A DNA stretch of 63,394 nucleotides from Phycisphaerae bacterium. GTDB taxonomy: Bacteria > Planctomycetota > Phycisphaerae > Tepidisphaerales > Tepidisphaeraceae. Made by a program: the position numbers and the translations under genes. The stretch covers positions 1-63,394 of the forward strand of contig JAICIO010000025.1 of the NCBI GenBank assembly GCA_025924315.1, in the 5' to 3' direction. This document shows positions 39-10,715 of the stretch, piece by piece. Under the pieces are notes generated by a model. The model was given only the letters and a program-made list of their open reading frames with translations, ran no database searches and was not told the DNA's origin. Numbering within the stretch: position 1 is the stretch's first letter; every line of letters starts with the position of its first letter.

Positions 39-91
39 CCGCCGCTTGCGGCTTCGCGTGTCTTGCTAACCCCGCTAAGCCGCAAGCGGCT
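39..91. repeat. Inverted repeat at the 3' edge of the minus-strand operon
   Basis: GCCGCTTGCGGCTT near 39-52 is matched by AAGCCGCAAGCGGC near 78-91, ending where the first minus-strand gene stops. It may act as a 3' stabilising hairpin. There is no T-run, so I do not call it an intrinsic terminator. Confidence 0.5.
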
Positions 92-927
92 CACCACTGC
101 CCGCGGCCTTCGCGCAGCACACCCACCAGGCTCGCCAGGTCGAAATCACGATCCCGACCCGACAAGCAGATGCCCGCCGACGCAACCGTGAGATCGCGCC
201 GGTTCACCGTGCTCAAATGACGCAGACCATCAAGATTGAACGAAACGCGAAAGTAATCACCGCTTTGCGCGAAATCGCGCAGCTCAGCGCCCGCGTGCGC
301 GAGCGCTTCGCGCAGCCGCGTCTCGTTGCGATACGCCGGCAACTCCTTGAGCCGCGCGGCATATGCGAGCGAGTACGCCCAGCGCTGACCGAGCGTCAGG
401 CCGGGCCGATCGATCGCCTTCGGCTCGGCGAGCTCAATCAGGCTGCGGCGCAGATGCGCCGCGAGTCGCGGATCGATCGCCTCATCGAGCTGATCGAACC
501 AGAACGTCTGGCCGTCAAAGCGCGCAATCACGCAGTCGAACGGCTCGGCCTCGCCGATCAGCTCGACCCGGATCGTGCCGTCGGTCGAAAGTCGCAGGTC
601 GCTCGAATTCGCCGGTACAACCAGCGCATGCTCGCGCAGCTTCCGCACAACGATCAGCCGCACGCGCGCGAACAGCTCCAGATACATTCGCCGGTGCGCA
701 AGCGTCGCCGGCCGATCGAGCATCGCCTGCCGCGGCGTGACCGGCAGAAAGATTCCCCAGCCGCGGAAGCTCGGGGGATCGATCTCCATCGCGCACACCA
801 CGCCGGCAATACGCACGCTCACCTTACGTCCGCGCACAACCGGAGCGATGAATTCCTGCTCGAAGAACTCTTTCTCGACGTGCGCGAGCTGCGAGATCGC
901 GCGGAGGATGTTCGGGCGGCGACGCAT
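91..927 (-). CDS. Uncharacterised protein, last gene of the TROVE-side operon
   Basis: This encodes 278 residues of a family I cannot name. There is no signal peptide or membrane segment. The N-terminal third is basic and beta-rich; the C-terminal half is leucine- and arginine-rich and probably helical. The ATG lies one base after the TGA of the preceding gene (TGACATG), so the two are almost certainly translationally coupled. It is the last of three small genes that follow the Ro60-like gene on the same strand. A role in RNA handling is inference from neighbourhood only. No catalytic motif is visible. Confidence 0.7.
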   Translation of the reverse strand: MRRRPNILRAISQLAHVEKEFFEQEFIAPVVRGRKVSVRIAGVVCAMEIDPPSFRGWGIFLPVTPRQAMLDRPATLAHRRMYLELFARVRLIVVRKLREHALVVPANSSDLRLSTDGTIRVELIGEAEPFDCVIARFDGQTFWFDQLDEAIDPRLAAHLRRSLIELAEPKAIDRPGLTLGQRWAYSLAYAARLKELPAYRNETRLREALAHAGAELRDFAQSGDYFRVSFNLDGLRHLSTVNRRDLTVASAGICLSGRDRDFDLASLVGVLREGRGQW

Positions 928-928
928 G

Positions 929-1633
929 TCACGATTCCTTCAATCCTTCCTGTCGAATGTCCTTCGAGTTCAGTTGCGTCTTCTTCGATGCATAAATACC
1001 GAGCTTGTGCTCCGGCGAGCATTCAGAGCGCCCGGCGATTAACGGTCGGCGCAGCAACACATCGAAAAAACTCTCTCCGGCGGCCGGGATCGAGGCGAAA
1101 TTGATGCGGTACCAGATGCCGTCGATCTTGCGATACGCAAAGCCGCGCTTCTTGTCGCAGAGGATTTCTTCGCGCTGGCGCCGGCGCTCCATATTCTGCC
1201 TCCACCACTTGAACCACGGCCGCCGCTGTCGCACTTCAACGAGCAGGCCGGTGCGGGCGTTGACAACGAATGGCGACCACACCGGTTCACCGCGCGTGTT
1301 GACCCAGATCTTCTCGACTTTCGATGCGTCGAGCGTCACGTAGTGGTCAAGGTGCTGCCGAATGTGCAGTTGGACCGCCGAGTTCACGTTGATGTGCTGG
1401 CTGATCTCGCTGAACACTTTATTCCACGGCCGACCGACGTTGCTTCGGAGATAACGCTTCAAGGGCGCCAGGTTTTCGTTGAGCAGCTTTGAATCGCCGC
1501 TCCACGGCCGCTTGATCGCCTCGCGCTTGGGCAGCAGATCGAAATCGCGCACGCGATCACGGGCCCGCGGAAAACTCGCGCCACCCCCAATCCTCGGGCG
1601 CTCGACGATCACCTTTGACATGTCGGCACGCAT
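929..1633 (-). CDS. Conserved hypothetical protein, basic, probably nucleic-acid associated
   Basis: This encodes 234 residues, starting at the second in-frame ATG, which has GGGGG five bases upstream; an ATG four codons earlier (1645) is possible. The protein is very basic. A segment near residues 55-110 (LNENLAPLKRYLRSNVGRPW, then NKVFSEISQHI) resembles a hypothetical family I recall from planctomycetes and myxobacteria, but I cannot attach a function. WFKWWRQNMERRRQREE in the middle suggests an RNA- or protein-binding helix. It is coupled to the gene ending at 91. The 63-base gap to the gene upstream fits one operon. Confidence 0.7.
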   Translation of the reverse strand: MRADMSKVIVERPRIGGGASFPRARDRVRDFDLLPKREAIKRPWSGDSKLLNENLAPLKRYLRSNVGRPWNKVFSEISQHINVNSAVQLHIRQHLDHYVTLDASKVEKIWVNTRGEPVWSPFVVNARTGLLVEVRQRRPWFKWWRQNMERRRQREEILCDKKRGFAYRKIDGIWYRINFASIPAAGESFFDVLLRRPLIAGRSECSPEHKLGIYASKKTQLNSKDIRQEGLKES

Positions 1634-1696
1634 GACAACCCCCATGGAATCGGGTGGCGCAGGCGCTTACGCACCTGCGCCACCCGCGTTACTCCG

Positions 1697-4013: not shown

Positions 4014-4192
4014 TCGAATGATGAAGACCAGACCCGCGCGAGTCACGCGAGCGTGCAGTTGTTACTGCCTGATTAAAGTCAGGTGCCTTTTCCAATTTGG
4101 CTACAATGGCAAATGCGCCACTGACGGGATTCGAACCCGCATAAGTTTGTAAGCTCGGGTCGTTGGGCGCGGATCGGGTTTTCATCATTCGA
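4014..4192 (-). ncRNA. Y-RNA-like ncRNA 4 (permuted tRNA module, GCCATTG acceptor)
   Basis: The ends pair: TCGAATGATGAA (4192-4181) with TTCATCATTCGA (4025-4014), then after two mismatches and a 3-bp step a further 9 bp, giving about 24 bp. Inside are the shared internal loop (CCCAACG against GACTC) and the GAGC/GCTC step. The tRNA-like core is permuted: T-arm GCGGG-TTCGAAT-CCCGT first, then acceptor strand CAGTGGC (4123-4117), a six-base loop, the matching strand GCCATTG (4110-4104), a D-arm, and the hairpin CCTGA-CTTTAA-TCAGG. The anticodon-like loop has only six bases, so decoding is unlikely. This is the copy nearest the Ro60-like gene. Confidence 0.8.
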
Positions 4193-4201
4193 TTGTCAAA
4201 G

Positions 4202-4378
4202 AATCGTGAACGAGCGGCCGTGCGAGTCGCGCGAGCCGTTAAACTTAAGAGCGTTCTGCCATTGAACTACGCGTCCGGTTTTTTCGATCATGGACGCGAC
4301 GGGATTCGAACCCGCAACCACTCCCTTTCAAAGGTGTTTGTATGCTCATGCCGTTGGGCACGGCCGCCGTTCACTATT
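4202..4378 (-). ncRNA. Y-RNA-like ncRNA 3 (permuted tRNA module, GGACGCG acceptor)
   Basis: The terminal helix pairs GTGAACG with CGTTCAC and GCGGCCGTG (4367-4359) with CACGGCCGC (4222-4214), with one bulge. The four pairs next to the conserved loop read CGTG/CACG here but GCGC/GCGC in the sister copies, a compensatory change that supports the fold. The loop CCCAACG/GACTC, the GAGC/GCTC step and an AAAC/GTTT step follow. The core is permuted: T-arm, acceptor CGCGTCC (4298-4292), a 15-base loop, acceptor GGACGCG (4276-4270; seven perfect pairs), then the complete D-arm GTTC-AATGGCA-GAAC. CCTTTGAAAGG forms an anticodon-like hairpin in the first half. Confidence 0.82.
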
Positions 4379-4396
4379 TCCCTGCAGTTCGTCATT

Positions 4397-4583
4397 CGAC
4401 TGAGCCGCTTCATCAGCTCGCGCAAGTCACAAGAGCGACTTGAAACCACTGAACTATGCGGGCGTTGAAAAACTGAGTGCCCGCAATCGGATTCGAACCG
4501 ATGGCCTCCGCGCTTTCGCGCGGCGTTCTACCTTGTTTGTAAGCTCATGCCGTTGGGCGCGAGCGGATGAAGCGAATCAGTCG
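4397..4583 (-). ncRNA. Y-RNA-like ncRNA 2 (permuted tRNA module, GCCCGCA acceptor)
   Basis: The terminal helix pairs CGACTGA with TCAGTCG, TCGCTTCATC with GATGAAGCGG, and GCTCGCG (4564-4558) with CGCGAGC (4422-4416), about 24 bp with two mismatches. The shared loop CCCAACG/GACTT and the GAGC/GCTC and AAAC/GTTT steps follow. The core is permuted: the half with TAGAAC, a CCGCGC-GAAA-GCGCGG hairpin and T-arm ATCGG-TTCGAAT-CCGAT comes first; then acceptor TGCGGGC (4485-4479), a loop, acceptor GCCCGCA (4463-4457) and the 5' part of the D-arm. The GAAA tetraloop replaces an anticodon loop and lacks U33, so this RNA cannot decode. Confidence 0.82.
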
Positions 4584-4601
4584 TTTCTATCAATTCCAGT
4601 C

Positions 4602-4753
4602 AAATGCCTGCGAGTTCGCGCAAGTCGAAGAAGCGTTCCGTTTGCCTGGCGTGAAGGGATCGAACCTCCTACAGCGCCGGAGCGCTGTTTGCACCGATCT
4701 GCCGCCTCGAAGCATGTATGCTCCAACCATTGGGCGCGAAAACGCAGACATTT
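4602..4753 (-). ncRNA. Y-RNA-like ncRNA 1 (divergent module with T-arm and extra hairpin)
   Basis: The ends pair as AAATGTCTGCG with CGCAGGCATTT (11 bp, one G-U), followed by TTCGCGC/GCGCGAA and the shared loop (GCGCCCAATG against GACTTGCGC). The core carries a T-arm GGAGG-TTCGATC-CCTTC and a strong hairpin CAGCG-CTCCGG-CGCTG in the position of a long variable arm. Unlike its three neighbours I cannot find two separate acceptor strands; only a GGCG/CGCC closing is visible. It is the first copy read on this strand and begins just downstream of the small gene 4761-4988. Confidence 0.68.
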
Positions 4754-4760
4754 TTTTCGT

Positions 4761-4988
4761 TCAACCGAACACGGCCTCCGGACGAAGCGTCAGGTTGCCG
4801 TTCTGGTGCCGATCCACGACGTAATCATTCAGCCGCGAATCCTGCACCTCGAGGTGCCGCGCGAGCGTGCGCTTCACCTCGCGCTCGCTCGTGTCGGCCG
4901 CGAGGCCCAGATGCTCCAATGGAATGTCGAAGCTCTGGCCGGCGAAACGTACGTGAATCACCGAATCAATCGTGTTGCTGCGAACCAT
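4761..4988 (-). CDS. Small conserved-looking protein at the end of the tRNA array
   Basis: This encodes 75 residues from an ATG with GGGAGGTCGT upstream. The sequence (VIHVRFAGQSFDIPLEHLGL, then EVKRTLARHLEV) reads as a beta-hairpin followed by a helix, a small soluble domain with a possible ubiquitin-like or regulatory fold; no family is recognised. It lies between tRNA-His and the first Y-RNA-like gene on the same strand, so it is probably on the same primary transcript. GC-rich third positions and a good ribosome-binding site support coding. Confidence 0.7.
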   Translation of the reverse strand: MVRSNTIDSVIHVRFAGQSFDIPLEHLGLAADTSEREVKRTLARHLEVQDSRLNDYVVDRHQNGNLTLRPEAVFG

Positions 4989-5014
4989 TACGACCTCCCT
5001 TTTAAAAGTGTCAG

Positions 5015-5088
5015 GGTGAACGACGGGACTCGAACCCGTACGGACCAGGATCACAGCCTGGTGCTCTGCCGCTTGAGCTACGCCCACC
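5015..5088 (-). tRNA. tRNA-His (GTG)
   Basis: Cloverleaf with anticodon arm CCAGG-CTGTGAT-CCTGG and an extra G at -1 opposite C73, the histidine identity pair. CCA is not encoded. Last tRNA of the array. Confidence 0.95.
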
Positions 5089-5094
5089 ATCAAA

Positions 5095-5167
5095 AGACTG
5101 CGAGAGGAATCGAACCTCTAAAAGCGGGTGTTGCAGACCCGAGCCTTAACCATTCGGCCACGCAGCC
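5095..5167 (-). tRNA. tRNA-Cys (GCA)
   Basis: Acceptor GGCTGCG/CGCAGTC with U73, a cysteine identity base. Anticodon loop TCTGCAAC with stem CGGGT/ACCCG. Confidence 0.93.
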
Positions 5168-5171
5168 ATAG

Positions 5172-5244
5172 CACGCCGTGTAGGAATCGAACCTACCCAC
5201 TCCGGATTTGGAGGCCGGCGTCCCGCCATTGGGACCGACGGCGT
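5172..5244 (-). tRNA. tRNA-Trp (CCA)
   Basis: Acceptor ACGCCGT/ACGGCGT, G73, anticodon loop CTCCAAA. The last pair of the anticodon stem is a C-U mismatch. Confidence 0.93.
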
Positions 5245-5257
5245 ATTGGCAGAGAGG

Positions 5258-5331
5258 ATTGAGGATGGAGAATCGAGGATAGCGCCGCCCCTACTTCGCC
5301 ATCCTCAATCCTCAATCCTCCATGCTCTCCG
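5258..5331. repeat. Palindromic repeat between tRNAs (GGATTGAGGATGGAG family)
   Basis: GAGGATTGAGGATGGAG on one side is mirrored by CTCAATCCTCAATCCTCC on the other, filling the spacer between tRNA-Trp and tRNA-Tyr. Related spacers built from GGATGA/TCATCC words lie at 5503-5597, 5785-5850 and 9232-9300. Confidence 0.7.
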
Positions 5332-5337
5332 AACAAA

Positions 5338-5423
5338 TGCGTAGGGAAGGATTCGAACCTCCGTGGGCCCATAGGGCCGGCAGGGTTACAGCCTGCTACC
5401 TTCAACCGCTCGGTCACCTACGC
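5338..5423 (-). tRNA. tRNA-Tyr (GTA)
   Basis: Class II tRNA with a long variable arm (CGGCCC/GGGCC-type hairpin). Acceptor GCGTAGG/CCTACGC, A73, anticodon loop CTGTAAC. Confidence 0.95.
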
Positions 5424-5428
5424 GTCAG

Positions 5429-5502
5429 TCAGCGTGGAAGGATTTGAACCTCCGACCCCGTGCGTCCGAGGCACGTGCGCTACCAAACTGCGCTACACGC
5501 TG
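5429..5502 (-). tRNA. tRNA-Pro (CGG)
   Basis: Acceptor CAGCGTG/CACGCTG, A73, anticodon stem CGTGC/GCACG with loop CTCGGAC. Confidence 0.95.
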
Positions 5503-5597
5503 AATGAGTAAGGATGAAAGATGAATTATGAAGGATGAAGTTGAGGCCCTCTTCCTCCCTCATCCTTCATCCTTCACCCTTCTGACTTCATCCTTAT
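5503..5597. repeat. Palindromic GGATGA/TCATCC spacer repeat
   Basis: Repeated AAGGATGAA words are mirrored by TTCATCCTT words between tRNA-Pro and tRNA-Glu. A shorter copy fills 5785-5850 and another 9232-9300. Confidence 0.65.
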
Positions 5598-5601
5598 TCC
5601 A

Positions 5602-5674
5602 AGCTCCCGGTGGGAATCGAACCCGACATTCTCCGGTTGAAAGCCGGTCGTCCTAACCGTTAGATGACGGGAGC
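5602..5674 (-). tRNA. tRNA-Glu (TTC)
   Basis: Acceptor GCTCCCG/CGGGAGC, anticodon loop CTTTCAA. The first pair of the anticodon stem is an A-A or A-C type mismatch. Confidence 0.93.
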
Positions 5675-5697
5675 AAATCTATCAAACACAATCAAAA

Positions 5698-5771
5698 CGC
5701 TCTCGAAGGGAGTCGAACCCATATTTCTCTGACTGAGAATCAGATCGCCTGGACCATTAGCAGACGAGAGC
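5698..5771 (-). tRNA. tRNA-Glu (CTC)
   Basis: Acceptor GCTCTCG/CGAGAGC, G73, anticodon stem TCTGA/TCAGA with loop TTCTCAG. Confidence 0.94.
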
Positions 5772-5784
5772 AGAAGACAATTCA

Positions 5785-5850
5785 GAATTCAGAATGATGA
5801 AGGATGAAAATGCCGTCACTTCATCCTTCATAATTCATCCTTCATCCTTC
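5785..5850. repeat. Palindromic GGATGA/TCATCC spacer repeat
   Basis: AGAATGATGAAGGATGAA is mirrored by TTCATCCTTCATAATTCATC between tRNA-Glu(CTC) and tRNA-Asn. Confidence 0.65.
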
Positions 5851-5857
5851 GCTTCAG

Positions 5858-5930
5858 CACCGGCGGATGGATTTGAACCACCAATGACGCGGTTAACAGC
5901 CGCGCGCTCTACCAATTGAGCTACACCGGT
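5858..5930 (-). tRNA. tRNA-Asn (GTT)
   Basis: Acceptor ACCGGTG/CGCCGGT, G73, anticodon stem CGCGG/CCGCG with loop CTGTTAA. Confidence 0.95.
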
Positions 5931-5963
5931 ATTTATTCAGTTGCCAAAGACAGTCATCCCAAG

Positions 5964-6034
5964 CTGAGTCGCGTGGATTTGAACCATGATCTCCGAGTTC
6001 AAAGCCCGGCATTCTGCCGTTGAACTACGACTCA
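5964..6034 (-). tRNA. tRNA-Gln (TTG)
   Basis: Acceptor TGAGTCG/CGACTCA with the U1-A72 pair and G73 expected for glutamine. Anticodon loop CTTTGAA; one mismatch in the anticodon stem. Confidence 0.94.
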
Positions 6035-6037
6035 CTC

Positions 6038-6271
6038 TCAAACCCGCACCGCCTTGTGCCAGTACGGCAGGCGAACCAACCGATCCCCCACGCGCACACG
6101 TCCGCGGGCGAAAATATCGTTGCCGGCGCGCCACACGCACTCGCATTCCAGCTCGCGGTCGCGCGCGCCCTGCGACGCATCGACGTTCAGCCACGGCCGG
6201 GGGAGGAAGATCCAATCGATGCCAGGGATTTCTTCCACTCGGCATTCGGCACAGTATTTCACGTTGCACAT
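6038..6271 (-). CDS. Small cysteine-containing protein inside the tRNA array
   Basis: This encodes 77 residues from an ATG with AAAGGAGGTCGCG upstream, a near-perfect Shine-Dalgarno. The N-terminus has a CxxxxxCxxC arrangement (MCNVKYCAEC) and CEC sits in the middle, which could bind metal. Trp-rich beta-like sequence follows (ending RLVRLPYWHKAVRV). I do not recognise the family. It lies between tRNA-Gln(CTG) and tRNA-Gln(TTG) on the same strand, with only three bases to the next tRNA, so it must be translated from the tRNA precursor before or after processing. Confidence 0.75.
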   Translation of the reverse strand: MCNVKYCAECRVEEIPGIDWIFLPRPWLNVDASQGARDRELECECVWRAGNDIFARGRVRVGDRLVRLPYWHKAVRV

Positions 6272-6301
6272 CGCGACCTCCTTTCTTGGTTGATGAAAAA
6301 G

Positions 6302-6372
6302 CTCAGGGAGAAGGATTCGAACCTCCATCACTCGGGTCAGAGCCGAGCATCCTGCCGTTAAACGATCCCTGA
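6302..6372 (-). tRNA. tRNA-Gln (CTG)
   Basis: Acceptor TCAGGGA/TCCCTGA (U1-A72), G73, anticodon stem CTCGG/CCGAG with loop CTCTGAC. Confidence 0.95.
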
Positions 6373-6373
6373 T

Positions 6374-6448
6374 TAGGAGACGGTTGGATTTGAACCAACG
6401 ACCTGAGGCTTATGAGGCCCCTGCTCTGAACCCCTGAGCTACGCTCCT
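6374..6448 (-). tRNA. tRNA with CAT anticodon (Met or Ile2)
   Basis: Anticodon arm GGGGC-CTCATAA-GCCTC. The D-arm and T-arm (GTTGG/CCAAC) are regular. The 5' acceptor strand AGGAGCG faces an eight-base 3' strand CGTCTCCT, so one U must bulge. It lacks the three G-C pairs of an initiator next to the loop, so an elongator Met or lysidine-modified Ile is more likely. It starts one base from tRNA-Gln(CTG). Confidence 0.85.
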
Positions 6449-6475
6449 ATGTGTGACGAATACGTGTCATGAAAG

Positions 6476-6548
6476 AGCCGCAGGCTGGAATCGAACCAGC
6501 GACGTCCGCATTACGAGGGCGGTGCTCTGCCGTCTGAGCTACTGCGAC
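6476..6548 (-). tRNA. tRNA-Thr (CGT)
   Basis: Acceptor GTCGCAG/CTGCGGC, anticodon loop CTCGTAA; one mismatch at the base of the anticodon loop. Confidence 0.93.
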
Positions 6549-6552
6549 ATGA

Positions 6553-6612
6553 TGTAGGGTGTGCTTCAGCACACCGATGAAAGCGATGGTGTGCTGAAGC
6601 ACACCCTACGAG
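6553..6612. repeat. Palindrome of the GTAGGGTGnGCT family
   Basis: GTAGGGTGTGCTTCAGCACACC is mirrored at the other end by GGTGTGCTGAAGCACACCCTAC (each arm about 22 bases). Related to copies at 10018-10091, 14125-14198, 19289-19369, 21063-21140 and 52427-52502. Confidence 0.85.
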
Positions 6613-6618
6613 GAACAA

Positions 6619-6690
6619 TGCAGTGAGCGGGAATCGAACCCACATCCCCGGTTTGGAAGACCGGCACTCTGCCGATTGAGTTATCACTGC
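6619..6690 (-). tRNA. tRNA-Gly (TCC)
   Basis: Acceptor GCAGTGA/TCACTGC, A73, anticodon stem CCGGT/ACCGG with loop CTTCCAA. Confidence 0.95.
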
Positions 6691-6692
6691 TC

Positions 6693-6761
6693 TGTAGGGG
6701 CGACGCTCGCGTCGCCCTTTGTCGATTGGAAGAGGGCGACGCAAGCGTCGCCCCTACGAGA
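6693..6761. repeat. Palindrome of the GTAGGGGCGACGC family
   Basis: GTAGGGGCGACGCTCGCG is mirrored by CGCAAGCGTCGCCCCTAC, filling the spacer between two tRNA-Gly genes. Confidence 0.8.
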
Positions 6762-6765
6762 TAAG

Positions 6766-6841
6766 TGCGCCGAGTGGGACTCGAACCCACGGCCTCCGCG
6801 TTGGCAACGCGGCGTTCTAAGCCAGGCTGAACTACCGACGC
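6766..6841 (-). tRNA. tRNA-Gly (GCC)
   Basis: Acceptor GCGTCGG/TCGGCGC, A73, anticodon stem CCGCG/CGCGG with loop TTGCCAA. Confidence 0.95.
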
Positions 6842-6910
6842 ATGTGCTGGTGATTGGTAATTGGTGATCGACTCACCGACTCATGCATCGTTCACCAATC
6901 ACCAGCCTCA

Positions 6911-6982
6911 TGTGGACCCTTGGAATCGAACCAAGATCTCGCGCTCTTCAGGCGCGCGCTCTACCGCATAAGCCAGGTCCAC
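6911..6982 (-). tRNA. tRNA-Phe (GAA)
   Basis: Acceptor GTGGACC/GGTCCAC, A73, anticodon stem CGCGC/GCGCG with loop CTGAAGA. Confidence 0.95.
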
Positions 6983-7005
6983 GTCTTCGCGCTTTCGCGC
7001 GACAG

Positions 7006-7079
7006 CGCCGCCAGCGGGTTTCGATCCCGCGACCTCCCGCGTGACAAGCGGGCGCTCTGTCCATCTGAGCTATGGCGAC
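7006..7079 (-). tRNA. tRNA-Asp (GTC)
   Basis: Acceptor GTCGCCA/TGGCGGC, G73 (aspartate identity), anticodon stem CCCGC/GCGGG with loop TTGTCAC. The T-loop reads ATCGAAA: A at position 54 instead of the almost invariant T. Confidence 0.93.
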
Positions 7080-7113
7080 GTGACGAACTGCTAATTGTCA
7101 AAGAGCTCTTCCG

Positions 7114-7184
7114 TAGCATGGGCAACTTGCCCATGCATTTGCGGCTTTCGCCGCTTGGGCACGGGCGAGTCGCCCGTGCTACAA
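7114..7184. repeat. Palindrome of the GTAGCAnGGGCAA family
   Basis: GTAGCATGGGCAACTTGCCC and GGGCGAGTCGCCCGTGCTAC form the two ends around an inner GCGGCTTTCGCCGC hairpin. The same family sits in frame in the GH38 gene at 36880-36935. Confidence 0.75.
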
Positions 7185-7189
7185 ACCAG

Positions 7190-7279
7190 CGGAGGGTGAA
7201 GGATTCGAACCTTCGTCTCACCTTTCAGCGAGATCCGCGTTAGCACCGCGGCGCGATCGGCCAACTCTGCCAACCCTCC
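7190..7279 (-). tRNA. tRNA-Ser (GCT)
   Basis: Class II with long variable arm TCTCGC-TGAAAG-GTGAGA. Acceptor GGAGGGT/ACCCTCC, G73, anticodon stem CCGCG/CGCGG with loop GTGCTAA. Confidence 0.95.
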
Positions 7280-7322
7280 TTTCGACTCGCTGCGCTCGCT
7301 CAAGGCAGGCCCGAGTTCTTAG

Positions 7323-7408
7323 AGGAGGGTGAGGGACTTGAACCCCCAAGACCATTATGGCCACGGCCGTTTTCGAGACGGCTGCCTTACCAGTTAGGCT
7401 AACCCTCC
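7323..7408 (-). tRNA. tRNA-Ser (CGA)
   Basis: Class II with a long variable arm. Same acceptor stem as the neighbouring tRNA-Ser(GCT). Anticodon stem GCCGT/ACGGC with loop CTCGAAA. Position 73 reads T where serine tRNAs normally have G. Confidence 0.93.
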
Positions 7409-7459
7409 GTTCGTTGATCCAGGTTCTGATGAACCACTACTCATCGCTCACCTCTTCTT

Positions 7460-7723
7460 TCAGCCGTCGCACTTCTTGCTCAAATCGTCGTATCCGTGCA
7501 CCCGAGCGATCAGGTACGACTCCGGCCGTTCCTCGCGCGAAACACTTGCGACCGTCCACCCGTCTCGGATGACTCCACTGTCGACGTCCCGTAGGTTCTT
7601 CAGGACCGCACCGACAATGGCGATCTCCGATCGGATCCACGTGTTCTGAATGCACATCGTGCCATCGTTCACCGCTTTGGTGAGATCGCACATTCGATAC
7701 ATCTGCTCACGCCGTCCGCTCAT
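7460..7723 (-). CDS. Small uncharacterised protein between tRNA-Ser and EF-Tu
   Basis: This encodes 87 residues from an ATG without a strong ribosome-binding site. Upstream, GGAGGAAGTC-ATG opens a six-codon reading frame (MALELV, then stop) that ends just before this ATG, so the gene may be read by reinitiation or the annotated 5' end may hide a frameshift. The central part (IAIVGAVLKNLRDVDSGVI) is hydrophobic and well folded in appearance. Near the 3' end another frame also gives a plausible coiled-coil tail. No family is recognised. It lies on the strand of the tRNA array. Confidence 0.5.
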   Translation of the reverse strand: MSGRREQMYRMCDLTKAVNDGTMCIQNTWIRSEIAIVGAVLKNLRDVDSGVIRDGWTVASVSREERPESYLIARVHGYDDLSKKCDG

Positions 7724-7792
7724 CTTCTTGCCGACTAAACCAACTCCAGGGCCATGACTTCCTCCGGTCAAAAAAGTTTTCGTCTTTCAGAT

Positions 7793-7874
7793 TGGGAGGG
7801 CGAAGCTCCTGCTGAGCCGTCTTCTTCGCTCGCTCGAAAAGCGCGGCTCGGCTGGAGCCTCGCCCTCCCGAATC
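7793..7874. repeat. Palindrome of the GGGAGGGCGAAGCTCC family
   Basis: GGGAGGGCGAAGCTCCTGCT is mirrored by GGCTGGAGCCTCGCCCTCCC just downstream of the EF-Tu stop codon. The same family occurs at 32408-32492 and, in frame, at 42341-42416. Confidence 0.75.
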
Positions 7875-7887
7875 CTTCACATCAACC

Positions 7888-9090
7888 TCACGCCACGACT
7901 TTCGTCACGACGCCCGAGCCGATCGTGCGTCCGCCTTCACGTACTGCGAAACGCAGGCGCTCTTCGACGGCGGCGGGATTGTCGAGATCGACCTCGACCG
8001 TCACCGTGTCGCCGGGCATCACCATCTCGACCTCGCTCGGCAGCTTCGTCGTTCCGGGGACACTCGCCGTCCGGAAGAAAAACTGCGGGCGATAGCCGTT
8101 GAAGAACGGCGTGTGACGTCCGCCTTCTTCCTTGGTGAGCACGTACAGCTCGGCCAGAAACTTCTGCCGTGCCGTCAGCGTGCTCGGCGCCGCGAGCACC
8201 GTTCCGCGGGCGATTTCGTCCGCCTCCACGCCGCGAAGCAGCAGGCCGACGTTGTCGCCGGCGATCGCTTCTTCCATCGAGCGCTTGTGCTGCTCGATGT
8301 CCGTCACGACCACCGTCCGCTTGTCCTTCGAGCCGACGATCTCGACCGATTCGCCCTTGCGAATTCGGCCGCGCTCGATCAGGCCCGTCGCAACCGTGCC
8401 ACGACCGGTGATGCTGTGAACGCCTTCGACGCTCATCACCAGCGGCTGATCGACGAGTCGCTGCGGATCCGGGATGTAGGCGTCGAGTGCCGCAACGAGA
8501 CGATCGATCGCCTCGTTGGCGACTACGTCGCTCGGGTCCCTCAGCCCCGCGATAGCAGAGCCTCGGATCACCGGCACCTTCTCGCCGTCAAACCCGTACT
8601 TCGTCAGCAGCTCGCGGGTCTCGATTTCGACCAGGTCGAGCAGCTCCGGATCTTCAACAAGATCCACCTTGTTCATGAACACGACGATCTTCGGCACGCC
8701 CACCTGGCGAGCGAGCAGGATGTGCTCGCGCGTCTGCGGCATCGCACCGTCGGCCGCCGACAGAACCAGCACCGCGCCGTCCATTTGCGCCGCGCCGCTG
8801 ATCATGTTCTTGATGTAGTCCGCGTGGCCGGGGCAATCGACGTGGCTGTAGTGCCGCGTCTTCGACTCGTACTCCACGTGGCCGACGTTGATCGTCACGA
8901 CCTTCGTCGCATCGCGAACCGTTCCGCCTTTGGCAATCTCGCCGTATCCCTTCGCTTTCACGCTGCCGGGAAACAGGAAAGCCGATCGCGCGCTCAAAGC
9001 TGCGGTCAACGTCGTCTTGCCGTGGTCGATGTGACCGATCGTGCCGACGTTGAGATGAACCTTGCTGCGCACAAACACCTGTTTCGCCAT
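7888..9090 (-). CDS. tuf: Elongation factor Tu
   Basis: This encodes 400 residues, full length for EF-Tu, which delivers aminoacyl-tRNA to the ribosome. G1 GHIDHGKT (19-26), G3 DCPGH (85-89) and G4 NKVD (140-143) are intact; domains II and III follow, ending near [10 protein letters not shown] and [10 protein letters not shown]. Switch I is unusual: where most bacteria have RGITI this protein has DATKVVTI (60-67). I recall similar switch I sequences in planctomycete EF-Tu, which would make it a lineage trait, but I cannot check. AAAAAGGGGCG precedes the ATG. It lies in the tRNA array between tRNA-Leu(CAA) and tRNA-Ser(CGA), so it is probably cotranscribed with its ligands, as tufB is with tRNAs in Escherichia coli. 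Confidence 0.96.
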
Positions 9091-9148
9091 GACGCGCCCC
9101 TTTTTAAATCCGCGATCGCACCATGCGATCGAACTGTTCCTTTCTTCA

Positions 9149-9222
9149 TGCCGCAGGAAGGATTCGAACCTCCATCTGCGCGGTTCTTGAGACCGCCGCC
9201 TCTTCCGTTGGGCTACTGCGGC
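9149..9222 (-). tRNA. tRNA-Leu (CAA), class I variable loop
   Basis: Acceptor GCCGCAG/CTGCGGC, A73. Anticodon stem GCGGT/ACCGC with loop CTCAAGA. The variable region is only about six bases, unlike the long arm normal for bacterial leucine tRNAs. The D-arm reads TAGCCCAACGG and ends AGAGGC, a pattern shared by the two other leucine tRNAs of this array. Confidence 0.9.
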
Positions 9223-9231
9223 AGAGCAAAC

Positions 9232-9300
9232 TCAGAATTCAGAATGATGAAGGATGAAACGCCGCCGCTTCATAATTCAGCATTCATAATTCATCCTTCG
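9232..9300. repeat. Palindromic GGATGA/TCATCC spacer repeat
   Basis: ATGATGAAGGATGAA is mirrored by TTCATAATTCATCCTTC between tRNA-Leu(CAA) and tRNA-Leu(GAG). Confidence 0.6.
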
Positions 9301-9307
9301 ACCTCAG

Positions 9308-9382
9308 TGCTCTGAGCAGGATTCGAACCTGCATCACCGGGAATCTCAGTCCCAGGCCTCTGCCAAATTGGGCTACCAGAGC
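9308..9382 (-). tRNA. tRNA-Leu (GAG), class I variable loop
   Basis: Acceptor GCTCTGG/TCAGAGC, A73. Anticodon loop CTGAGAT with stem TGGGA/TCCCG. Short variable region and TAGCCCAA...GAGGC D-arm as in the other leucine tRNAs here. Confidence 0.9.
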
Positions 9383-9433
9383 ATTCGTCTTTTCGATCGC
9401 TGGCCTGCCATGAGCAAGCGCAAGCGAGTCGAA

Positions 9434-9506
9434 TGGACACCGGAGGGATTTGAACCCTCATCTCCTGGGTGCAAACCAGGGGTCTTGCCAGTTGGACGAC
9501 GGGCCC
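9434..9506 (-). tRNA. tRNA-Ala (TGC), bulged acceptor
   Basis: Anticodon stem CCTGG/CCAGG with loop TTTGCAC. The seven-base 5' acceptor strand GGGCCCG faces an eight-base 3' strand CGGTGTCC; pairing works with one bulged U and keeps a G-U wobble at the third pair, the alanine identity element. Without the bulge two mismatches remain. Confidence 0.85.
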
Positions 9507-9520
9507 ATGTTTTTCACTCA

Positions 9521-9595
9521 CGTCGCGAGAAGGATTCGAACCTTCAGCCTCGGCCTTCGGAGGGCCGCGCTCTGATCCGATTGAGCTATCGCAAC
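9521..9595 (-). tRNA. tRNA-Arg (CCG)
   Basis: Acceptor GTTGCGA/TCGCGAC, G73, anticodon stem CGGCC/GGCCG with loop CTCCGAA. Confidence 0.94.
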
Positions 9596-9679
9596 ATTCG
9601 CGTGTTGCGTGTGGCTTGTTGCACGTTGGATTAGCAGTTCCAACACGCCGCGCGCCACATGCGACACGCAACCATCCAG

Positions 9680-9753
9680 TGGTCCAGGCAGGATTCGAAC
9701 CTGCACTGTGCCGCTTCTGAGGCGGCTGCCTCTGCCGATTGGGCTACTGAACC
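9680..9753 (-). tRNA. tRNA-Leu (CAG), class I variable loop
   Basis: Acceptor GGTTCAG/CTGGACC, A73. Anticodon stem GCCGC/GCGGC with loop CTCAGAA. The variable region is five bases (ACAGT). Third leucine tRNA of the array without a long variable arm. Confidence 0.92.
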
Positions 9754-9776
9754 GTTTGTCCTCCATCGGAAGCCAC

Positions 9777-9848
9777 TGCACCGAGCGAGACTTGAACTCG
9801 CATCTCGCCGATTAAAAGTCGGGGGCTCTGCCATTGAGCTATCGGTGC
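9777..9848 (-). tRNA. tRNA-Lys (TTT)
   Basis: Acceptor GCACCGA/TCGGTGC, A73, anticodon loop CTTTTAA; one mismatch in the anticodon stem. Confidence 0.94.
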
Positions 9849-9869
9849 TTCGGCGCGAATTCGCGCCCA

Positions 9870-9944
9870 TGCACCGGGAGGGATTCGAACCCCCAACCCG
9901 CTCTTTAGAAGAGAGCCGCTCTCGTCCGATTGAGCTACCGGTGC
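9870..9944 (-). tRNA. tRNA-Arg (TCT)
   Basis: Acceptor GCACCGG/CCGGTGC, A73, anticodon stem GCTCT/AGAGC with loop CTTCTAA. Confidence 0.95.
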
Positions 9945-10017
9945 GCGTCATGATTTGGCCTCGCACCGTTTTCTTCGCTCACACATCGCACACACTCGCT
10001 TTCACCGATTGGGTCTT

Positions 10018-10091
10018 CGTAGGGTGCGCTTCAGCGCACCAGTTATTCCGCCCCTGGATCAATAACCGGTGCGCTGAAGCGCACCCTACGA
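10018..10091. repeat. Palindrome of the GTAGGGTGCGCTTCAGCGC family
   Basis: GTAGGGTGCGCTTCAGCGCA is mirrored by TGCGCTGAAGCGCACCCTAC, with inner AGTTATT/AATAACC arms. Nearly identical to 14125-14198 and 52427-52502. Confidence 0.88.
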
Positions 10092-10098
10092 AACCTCA

Positions 10099-10278
10099 TT
10101 AATCCGCGTTTCCACTTGTTCGTTCCTTCTCGTTTCGCTCGCGCAAATACTCGAGCAGCTGCTTGAAGTACTCCGGCTCGTCATCAGGCTTCTGATCGAA
10201 CGCCGGTTGCGGAGGGTCATCCTCCGATCGGGCCGCGTACTCCTGCGGCTCCTTGAATAGGGATATCAGTCGATTCAT
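10099..10278 (-). CDS. Small charged protein inside the tRNA array
   Basis: This encodes 59 residues, beginning MNRLISLFKEPQEYAA, with GAGGAAGCG before the ATG. The protein is strongly charged, Pro- and Glu-rich in the middle, and ends in a likely amphipathic helix (EYFKQLLEYLRERNEKER). No family is recognised. It lies between tRNA-Lys(CTT) and the palindrome at 10018, on the strand of the tRNAs. Confidence 0.65.
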   Translation of the reverse strand: MNRLISLFKEPQEYAARSEDDPPQPAFDQKPDDEPEYFKQLLEYLRERNEKERTSGNAD

Positions 10279-10310
10279 CGCTTCCTCACTCTCACTTCCC
10301 AGAACCTAAG

Positions 10311-10382
10311 TGCACCCGGCAGGACTTGAACCTGCACGATGCCGCTTAAGAGGCGGCGGCTCTGCCATTGAGCTACGAGTGC
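10311..10382 (-). tRNA. tRNA-Lys (CTT)
   Basis: Acceptor GCACTCG/CGGGTGC, A73, anticodon stem GCCGC/GCGGC with loop CTCTTAA. Confidence 0.95.
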
Positions 10383-10424
10383 GTTCATTGCAACTCCATT
10401 AAATACAACCAGTTCACACGTCAG

Positions 10425-10496
10425 CGCACCAGGGAGGAATCGAACCTCCATCTCCGGTTTCGTAGACCGGAGCTCTATCCGTTGAGCTACCAGTGC
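10425..10496 (-). tRNA. tRNA-Arg (ACG)
   Basis: Acceptor GCACTGG/CTGGTGC, G73, anticodon stem CCGGT/ACCGG with loop CTACGAA. A34 is expected to be edited to inosine by TadA. Confidence 0.95.
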
Positions 10497-10551
10497 GTAG
10501 TTTGTCCGTGCTCGATCGCCCGCGCGTTTGCGAAAGCGAATCGAGCTGTCA

Positions 10552-10623
10552 TGCGCAGTGAAGGGTTCGAGCCTTCGACCTCTCCGTTATCAACGGAGTG
10601 CTCTGCCGCTGAGCTAACCGCGC
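10552..10623 (-). tRNA. tRNA-Ile (GAT)
   Basis: Acceptor GCGCGGT/ACTGCGC, A73, anticodon stem CTCCG/CGGAG with loop TTGATAA. The T-loop reads CTCGAAC, with C instead of T at position 54. Confidence 0.93.
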
Positions 10624-10639
10624 GTATTTTTCCGACCAG

Positions 10640-10715
10640 TTCGCCTGGCTGGAATTGAACCAGCAACCCCCGGTTTGTAAGACCGGTGCTCTGAGCCAAA
10701 TTGAGCTACAGGCGC
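10640..10715 (-). tRNA. tRNA-Val (TAC)
   Basis: Acceptor GCGCCTG/CAGGCGA, so the terminal 1-72 pair would be G-A. Anticodon stem CCGGT/ACCGG with loop CTTACAA. First tRNA of the array in the direction of transcription. Confidence 0.92.

Follow-up and report, generated by a model that had tools for sequence, protein, structure and literature searches.

The 63,394-nt window analysed here (positions 1 to 63,394 of contig JAICIO010000025.1, assembly GCA_025924315.1, from a Phycisphaerae bacterium) carries on its minus strand a tandem set of four structured RNA units, together with genes for a Ro60-fold protein, a ubiquitin-like (Ubl) protein and two further proteins. An array of tRNA genes, which includes an extra EF-Tu gene, adjoins them (Table 1). 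The initial annotation of this DNA had described tandem Y RNAs with permuted tRNA modules attached to a tRNA array. The tandem arrangement and the attachment were borne out. Beyond copies of the bacterial Y RNA YrlA, the region is a Ro-linked RNA display array, in which one conserved RNA frame carries different inserts.

Table 1. Features of the display array and its surroundings in the window (aa, amino acids; AF2, AlphaFold2; MIDAS, metal ion-dependent adhesion site)
Feature	Position	Strand	Properties and evidence
Display RNA unit 1	4014..4192	-	Frame with permuted tRNA module; acceptor 7/7 paired, T stem; tRNA after rotation; fold z -7.5; YrlA model 21.4 bits
Display RNA unit 2	4202..4378	-	Frame with permuted tRNA module; acceptor CGCGTCC/GGACGCG; tRNA after rotation; fold z -4.0; YrlA model 38.9 bits
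Display RNA unit 3	4397..4583	-	Frame with permuted tRNA module; acceptor TGCGGGC/GCCCGCA, 7/7; GAAA-capped extra arm; fold z -7.7
Display RNA unit 4	4602..4753	-	Frame with reduced tRNA-like insert; fold z -3.9; frame aligns with family
Ro60-fold protein, 561 aa	2263..3948	-	HEAT-type ring and vWA domain with MIDAS; AF2 model, VIA structure comparison, profile search
Ubiquitin-like beta-grasp protein, 75 aa, ends RPEAVFG	4761..4988	-	Relatives in 43 of 61 loci; invariant C-terminal Gly; AF2 topology bb-a-bb
238-aa protein	929..1645	-	Distant relatives in 10 cyanobacterial loci, tblastn 22-28% identity
278-aa protein	91..927	-	Relatives in 32 of 61 loci; conserved C-terminal AGICLSGxDRDFDLQSLVGV; invariant Cys
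tRNA array, 29 tRNAs	5014..10715	-	Upstream of operon and co-oriented; forms a second set in addition to tRNAs dispersed over the rest of the genome
Extra EF-Tu within tRNA array	7888..9090	-	68% identical to the genome's other copy

On folding, each of the four units gave one RNA structure with a long terminal stem, and its folding was far more favourable than that of dinucleotide shuffles. The inserts of units 1-3 contain the proposed tRNA-like modules in reversed order (T-arm, acceptor strand, short loop, acceptor strand, D-arm), and all three predicted acceptor pairs were located. In unit 1, the acceptor strands CAGTGGC and GCCATTG enclose the loop GCATTT, and the D-arm is followed by an anticodon-arm-like hairpin. 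The earlier description of these modules as two reversed tRNA halves was correct in the order of the parts, but not as a simple split in the anticodon loop, as the modules are opened at differing junctions and the anticodon arm often lies whole on one side in homologues. The fourth unit is related through its frame, but it is not permuted; its insert, with weak support, resembles a cut-down tRNA whose parts follow the usual order, the tRNA-Sec model giving 17.9 bits only (E 1.6). The Rfam YrlA model (RF02553) matched unit 2 (E 8.6e-7) and unit 1 and gave nothing for units 3 and 4. The expected kinship with YrlA was thus visible as sub-threshold matches, but membership of the Rfam family was not obtained, the best score lying under the gathering score of 69 bits. 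No YrlA match above this cut-off was found across the bacterium's own genome.

One scan with the Ro60-like protein identified relatives at 60 bacterial-genome loci and on one IMG/VR contig, with about 10 kb covered on each side (individual loci are cited by L numbers). They belong to Planctomycetota, Cyanobacteria, an acidobacterium, Obscuribacterales, Beggiatoa-type bacteria and others. A repeated frame was seen by eye in the DNA upstream of the Ro60-like genes of these relatives, consisting of a terminal stem (P1), an internal loop (CCAAC or CCYAAC in the 5' strand, GACTY in the 3' strand), a second stem (P2) and a CNTACANAC strand. A scan for the frame motif detected 211 units on the sense strand versus 3 on the antisense strand, and 186 versus 2 when no pairing criterion was applied. 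In the latter set, P1 was paired at 9.1 of 10 positions versus 7.0 with strands swapped between genomes, and P2 pairs were also above shuffles. In an alignment of 38 units with the inserts removed, 15 of 18 pairs were changed on both sides, the covariation score was 0.625 versus 0.233 in shuffles, the double-changed cells numbered 178 versus 63, and sliding the register abolished the signal. The choice of these 38 units had required 8 or more of the 10 P1 pairs, which makes the pairing-free scan the unbiased support for P1; P2 played no part in the selection. The pairing proposed earlier for the outer flanks, and the covariation proposed next to the internal loop, therefore held in homologues, where both stems covary strongly; a third pairing (P3, AAAC/GTTT) was supported only in part.

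The frame itself has no matching Rfam family. At gathering level, 13 of the relatives' loci (L009-L014, L069, L020, L022, L023, L029, L033 and L050) returned tRNA alone, plus one Acido-Lenti-1 match in L012 away from the units, and none of them contained YrlA above the cut-off. A strict frame pattern matched 9 of 392 genomes of the phylum, 3 of them beside a Ro60 gene; the other six had single matches, which are consistent with chance, and a reversed control pattern matched too. Arrays hold up to about ten different units. The constancy of the frame across units makes it the obvious candidate for the region bound by Ro60, and it is probably the part that the protein holds.

Insert classes were assigned by pattern. 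Without rearrangement, ARAGORN recognised 42 inserts as tRNAs; these have the normal order, with the frame replacing the acceptor stem. Another 24 were recognised only after rotation back to tRNA order, including units 1 and 2 of the window, and none of the shuffled inserts was recognised. A pattern of T-arm and split acceptor found 38 permuted modules versus 0 of 1055 shuffled inserts, a lower bound given that the pattern misses unit 2 of the window. The acceptor strands of these modules were paired at 6.95 of 7 positions within the module versus 4.06 when swapped. Anticodon-type 7-nt loops (Y32, U33, R37) were present in 52 of the 117 inserts with an early T-arm (3.1 expected in shuffles) and in 10 of 41 short inserts (0.5 expected), and several inserts consist solely of an anticodon-type hairpin. 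Several anticodons are atypical of bacteria or correspond to stop codons (AUC, AAG, ACA, UUA and CUA), which argues against a decoding role. The units might nevertheless be permuted tRNA genes, with transcripts that are processed and circularised into working tRNAs, as the order of the modules and the detection of tRNAs after rotation would suggest. However, the identical frame also bears rRNA pieces, bare hairpins and acceptorless tRNAs, a complete tRNA cannot be obtained from all units, the frame stems are kept by covariation, some anticodons are unusual or match stop codons, and true tRNAs for these jobs lie next door. On these grounds we rejected this explanation as highly improbable.

A second group of inserts carries pieces of 23S rRNA. 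An insert corresponding to helices 69 to 71 (H69-H71) of 23S rRNA, opened at the H69 loop, was found at L011, L018, L020, L028, L029, L033, L043, L044, L047, L057 and other loci; in a database search, that of L033 hit 23S genes of E. coli in nearly every genome, and the database matches of the rRNA-type inserts were annotated as 23S. In L044, L050, L051 and L053, the insert starts with the sarcin-ricin loop (SRL) and runs on into the GTPase-associated centre (GAC; E. coli 1046-1110). The SRL of L051 is identical at 13 of 13 bases, a 13-mer that alone would be non-significant, and the alignment of L051 to E. coli 23S scored 71 versus a shuffled maximum of 44. Both motifs were also present within the tRNA array of L026. 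Among 22 conserved rRNA motifs tested, H69, SRL and GAC were the only ones that recur inside frames; the decoding site, the 530 loop and the A-loop did not recur there, and a P-loop-like motif had two scattered matches, one in a tRNA-type unit. On the large subunit, eEF2 contacts H69, H95 and H43, three sites in all (PMC9830224). The rRNA inserts are thus copies of the three large-subunit contacts of the translocase. No description of rRNA-copy inserts was found in the searchable literature, a scope without the key reviews of bacterial Ro/Y RNAs and RNA repair, where facts on the neighbourhood may already stand.

The SRL-GAC copies sit within tRNA arrays, apart from other display units (L044:1809, L050:4001, L051:1824, L053:2893 and L026:3407). 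Another common class of inserts has three hairpins, with the consensus GGTGCGTA..TTGGAG..TACGCTGCAAGCCTGAGCC..GCAGGC, and was observed at L022:9405-9515, L026:9186-9298, L030, L032, L055, L024, L020:7037, L023:3550, L062:6531 and L094:9785.

Taken as a whole, the initial description as Y RNAs with permuted tRNA was apt for the Y-RNA-like architecture and the tandem set, but too narrow, as the relatives' frame also carries normal-order tRNAs, hairpins and 23S pieces. That the units are ordinary YrlA, the known bacterial Y RNA present in several copies next to rsr, is suggested by the YrlA score of unit 2 and by the neighbouring gene, the product of which has a Ro60 fold. Against this, scores lie under the Rfam cut-off both in the window and in the 13 relatives' loci, and the frame and the rRNA inserts are foreign to YrlA. 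We consider plain YrlA unlikely and rejected it, the insert classes having already refuted it in part.

A minimal hairpin insert (AACC-CUNNNNN-GGUU) was frequent in the last unit before the Ro60 open reading frame (L029:9724, L033:9854, L038:3437, L042:9811, L043:9811, L044:9810 and L050:8950), and this last unit is a possible autoregulatory site for Ro60 within the leader of the mRNA. Its recurrence at many loci would also fit a broader explanation, in which the frames are mainly binding sites through which Ro60 controls its own operon, or have an RNA-chaperone function, and the inserts are neutral captured sequences. Compensated stems and specific rRNA and tRNA folds that are kept across phyla would not be expected of neutral cargo, which makes this explanation very unlikely.

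The protein encoded next to the units had been annotated as a TROVE/vWA protein. Its AF2 model (predicted local distance difference test score, 83.9) matched human and frog Ro60, Deinococcus Rsr and Thermus phage phiLo Ro60 over the full length in the VIA comparison (Z 19-22, 418-441 residues, 14-16% identity), with the best Z of 22.3 to 9nep over 436 residues and a Z of 20.6 to D. radiodurans Rsr (2nvo). The family profile matched phiLo Ro60 (9l5y/9kop) in a PDB set at E 3e-4. The Ro60 fold and the vWA domain were therefore supported, but not a Pfam TROVE match: Pfam gave a weak vWA match alone for this protein, and PF05731 found nothing in the own genome at E<=10. Among the relatives, 7 of 23 matched Pfam vWA_Ro60 at E<=0.1. 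The MIDAS motif DxSxS is D376-K-S378-G-S380, and D376, K377, S378 and S380 are invariant in alignment A3. Given the full-length structural match of the model, the phiLo profile match, the vWA_Ro60 matches in relatives and the conserved MIDAS, the protein is, as judged by its predicted structure, a divergent Ro60. The linkage of the genes suggests that it binds the RNA units.

The gene between the units and the tRNA array encodes the 75-aa Ubl protein, whose AF2 model best matched ubiquitin-fold chains with modest Z values (4-6). Profiles of this protein and of the 278-aa protein gave nothing convincing against the PDB. The 278-aa family recurs in the operon, has no Pfam or NCBIfam match and has its invariant Cys near the C-terminus; it is possible that it is an enzyme of the Ubl pathway. 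In the relatives examined, a gene for an E1-like ThiF protein comes next. The E1 gene of the own genome is on contig C176, the end of which overlaps the start of the window (100-170) with small differences, indicating that the operon was split by the assembly and that its order is Ubl, RNAs, Ro60, 238-aa protein, 278-aa protein and E1. The operon thus combines two components expected of a Ubl conjugation system: a beta-grasp Ubl whose last residue is Gly, and an enzyme resembling E1. No E2 enzyme was recognised in it. Cyanobacterial loci also carry KptA, an AAA ATPase, DUF6847 and an NYN protein. Additionally, at least five true tRNAs were found in 11 of 62 loci, several of which have a full sense-strand array.

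The system is not confined to chromosomes. It was also found on a Dolichospermum plasmid and a Kovacikia megaplasmid, and the record of an uncultured 595-kb phage (LR756511.1; L092), which we take to be a record from the huge-phage study, carries units, Ubl, Ro60, the 278-aa protein, E1 and a JAMM-like protein (HTHP...D), with a tRNA block 8-15 kb downstream. In the main text of the huge-phage paper, Ro60 and TROVE are not mentioned. The system region of the phage spans L092 9900-29509, where the tRNA array contains HNH-type genes, and its H69-like insert (GACGGTCATAAGGTAGCGA, L092:10719-10990) seems to hold an extra long structured insertion, perhaps intron-like. On plasmid pAfl69 (L093:820-2314), the Ro60 gene is immediately followed by a HEPN-domain gene and a hypothetical gene in opposite orientation. 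Many HEPN proteins are RNases.

Ro60 proteins bind structured RNA and can be tethered or gated by Y RNAs (see PMC7790460). Our preferred reading, to which we give slightly less than an even chance, is that the region encodes a Ro60-based ribonucleoprotein (RNP) with alternative RNAs, in which copies of translation RNAs are baits for attacks on translation. The Ro60-like protein would hold the shared frame, and each RNA would present a different structural copy: tRNA bodies with anticodon arms, bare anticodon-type hairpins, 23S H69-H71, or SRL fused to GAC. These baits would attract, or be cut by, attackers of tRNAs and of the ribosomal factor site, such as RNase toxins, ribosome-inactivating toxins and possibly drugs. 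The Ro60 protein might sense damage to a bait, with the Ubl/E1 pair and the associated RNA-repair genes relaying the signal; losses would be replenished from the additional tRNA array and EF-Tu. In its general form, as an RNA-based immune or damage-sensing panel of modular RNAs displayed on a Ro60-bound frame and coupled to Ubl signalling in bacteria, plasmids and a huge phage, the proposal is plausible but somewhat doubtful. The YrlA tRNA-like domain has been suggested to inhibit an anticodon nuclease (Hughes et al. 2020, PMC7790460).

In the main rival model, each insert would serve as an adaptor, bringing one particular enzyme or factor to the Ro60 particle for purposes of repair or decay; candidates are tRNA/rRNA modification enzymes, PNPase or other nucleases, L11 and EF-G/EF-Tu. 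There is a precedent in Deinococcus, where, according to work cited in PMC7790460, a Y RNA tethers PNPase to Rsr. The tRNA elbow, H69, SRL and GAC are all protein-binding sites, the last three being exactly the elongation-factor contacts (PMC9830224), and the inserts retain whole folds, not cleavable loops alone. However, bare anticodon-type hairpins are poor handles for most tRNA enzymes, and the variety of inserts within one genome exceeds the apparent need. Tethering is therefore a serious possibility that we nonetheless consider less probable than not. Both models predict Ro60 binding. We favour baits over tethers in view of the bare anticodon-type hairpins, the odd anticodons in intact loops, the SRL copies, the RNA-repair genes found in linkage and the extra tRNAs and EF-Tu. 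Several observations weigh against baits: in Salmonella, the SOS-induced anticodon nuclease left the tRNA-like domain of YrlA uncut (PMC7790460), which also suits tethering; GAC is not a classical nuclease target; the three-hairpin class has no match in Rfam or in E. coli 23S, 16S and 5S; a clear anticodon arm is not present in every tRNA-type insert, unit 3 of the window having none; and KptA and RtcB of the own genome are on other contigs.

The display array bears on what bacterial Y RNAs are for and on the reason for the tRNA mimicry of one of them. The presence of tRNA, bare anticodon hairpin, H69 and SRL-GAC copies in one frame makes the bait and tether models directly testable, and the system joins four things rarely seen together, a Ro60 RNP, Ubl/E1, a tRNA array with EF-Tu, and RNA repair, even in a 595-kb phage. 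If the inserts are baits, both bacteria and phages possess RNA-based sensors of attacks on translation; if they are tethers, the inserts are ready-made tools for recruiting defined translation proteins.

Compared with the YrlA/Rsr system, the display array shares a neighbouring gene of the Ro60 family, a terminal stem and a permuted T-arm/acceptor/D-arm module closed by a loop. The module order typical of YrlA was found in units 1-3 of the window and in the 38 modules of the family, and the adjoining Ro60 orthologue is represented by the Ro60-fold protein. The array differs in its frame, in its multi-unit arrays, in its normal-order tRNA, hairpin and 23S inserts, and in the Ubl/E1 genes. The protein resembles Ro60/Rsr (2nvo and phiLo 9l5y) in its full-length fold and the vWA DxSxS motif, whereas it is too divergent for Pfam TROVE and has recurrent Ubl and 278-aa partners. 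In the trn operon of Anabaena, redundant tRNAs likewise form one block, and sense-strand tRNA arrays lie upstream in several of our loci. The available text of PMC10272220 describes induction of this cyanobacterial tRNA array by antibiotics that target translation, that is, by translation stress, and reports no Ro60 or display RNAs with it. Finally, prokaryotic Ubl conjugation operons share the Gly-ended beta-grasp protein, the E1-like ThiF and, in the phage locus, the protein with a JAMM-like motif, whereas the components found here, among which no E2 was recognised, are coupled to an RNP and not to a known conjugation cassette.
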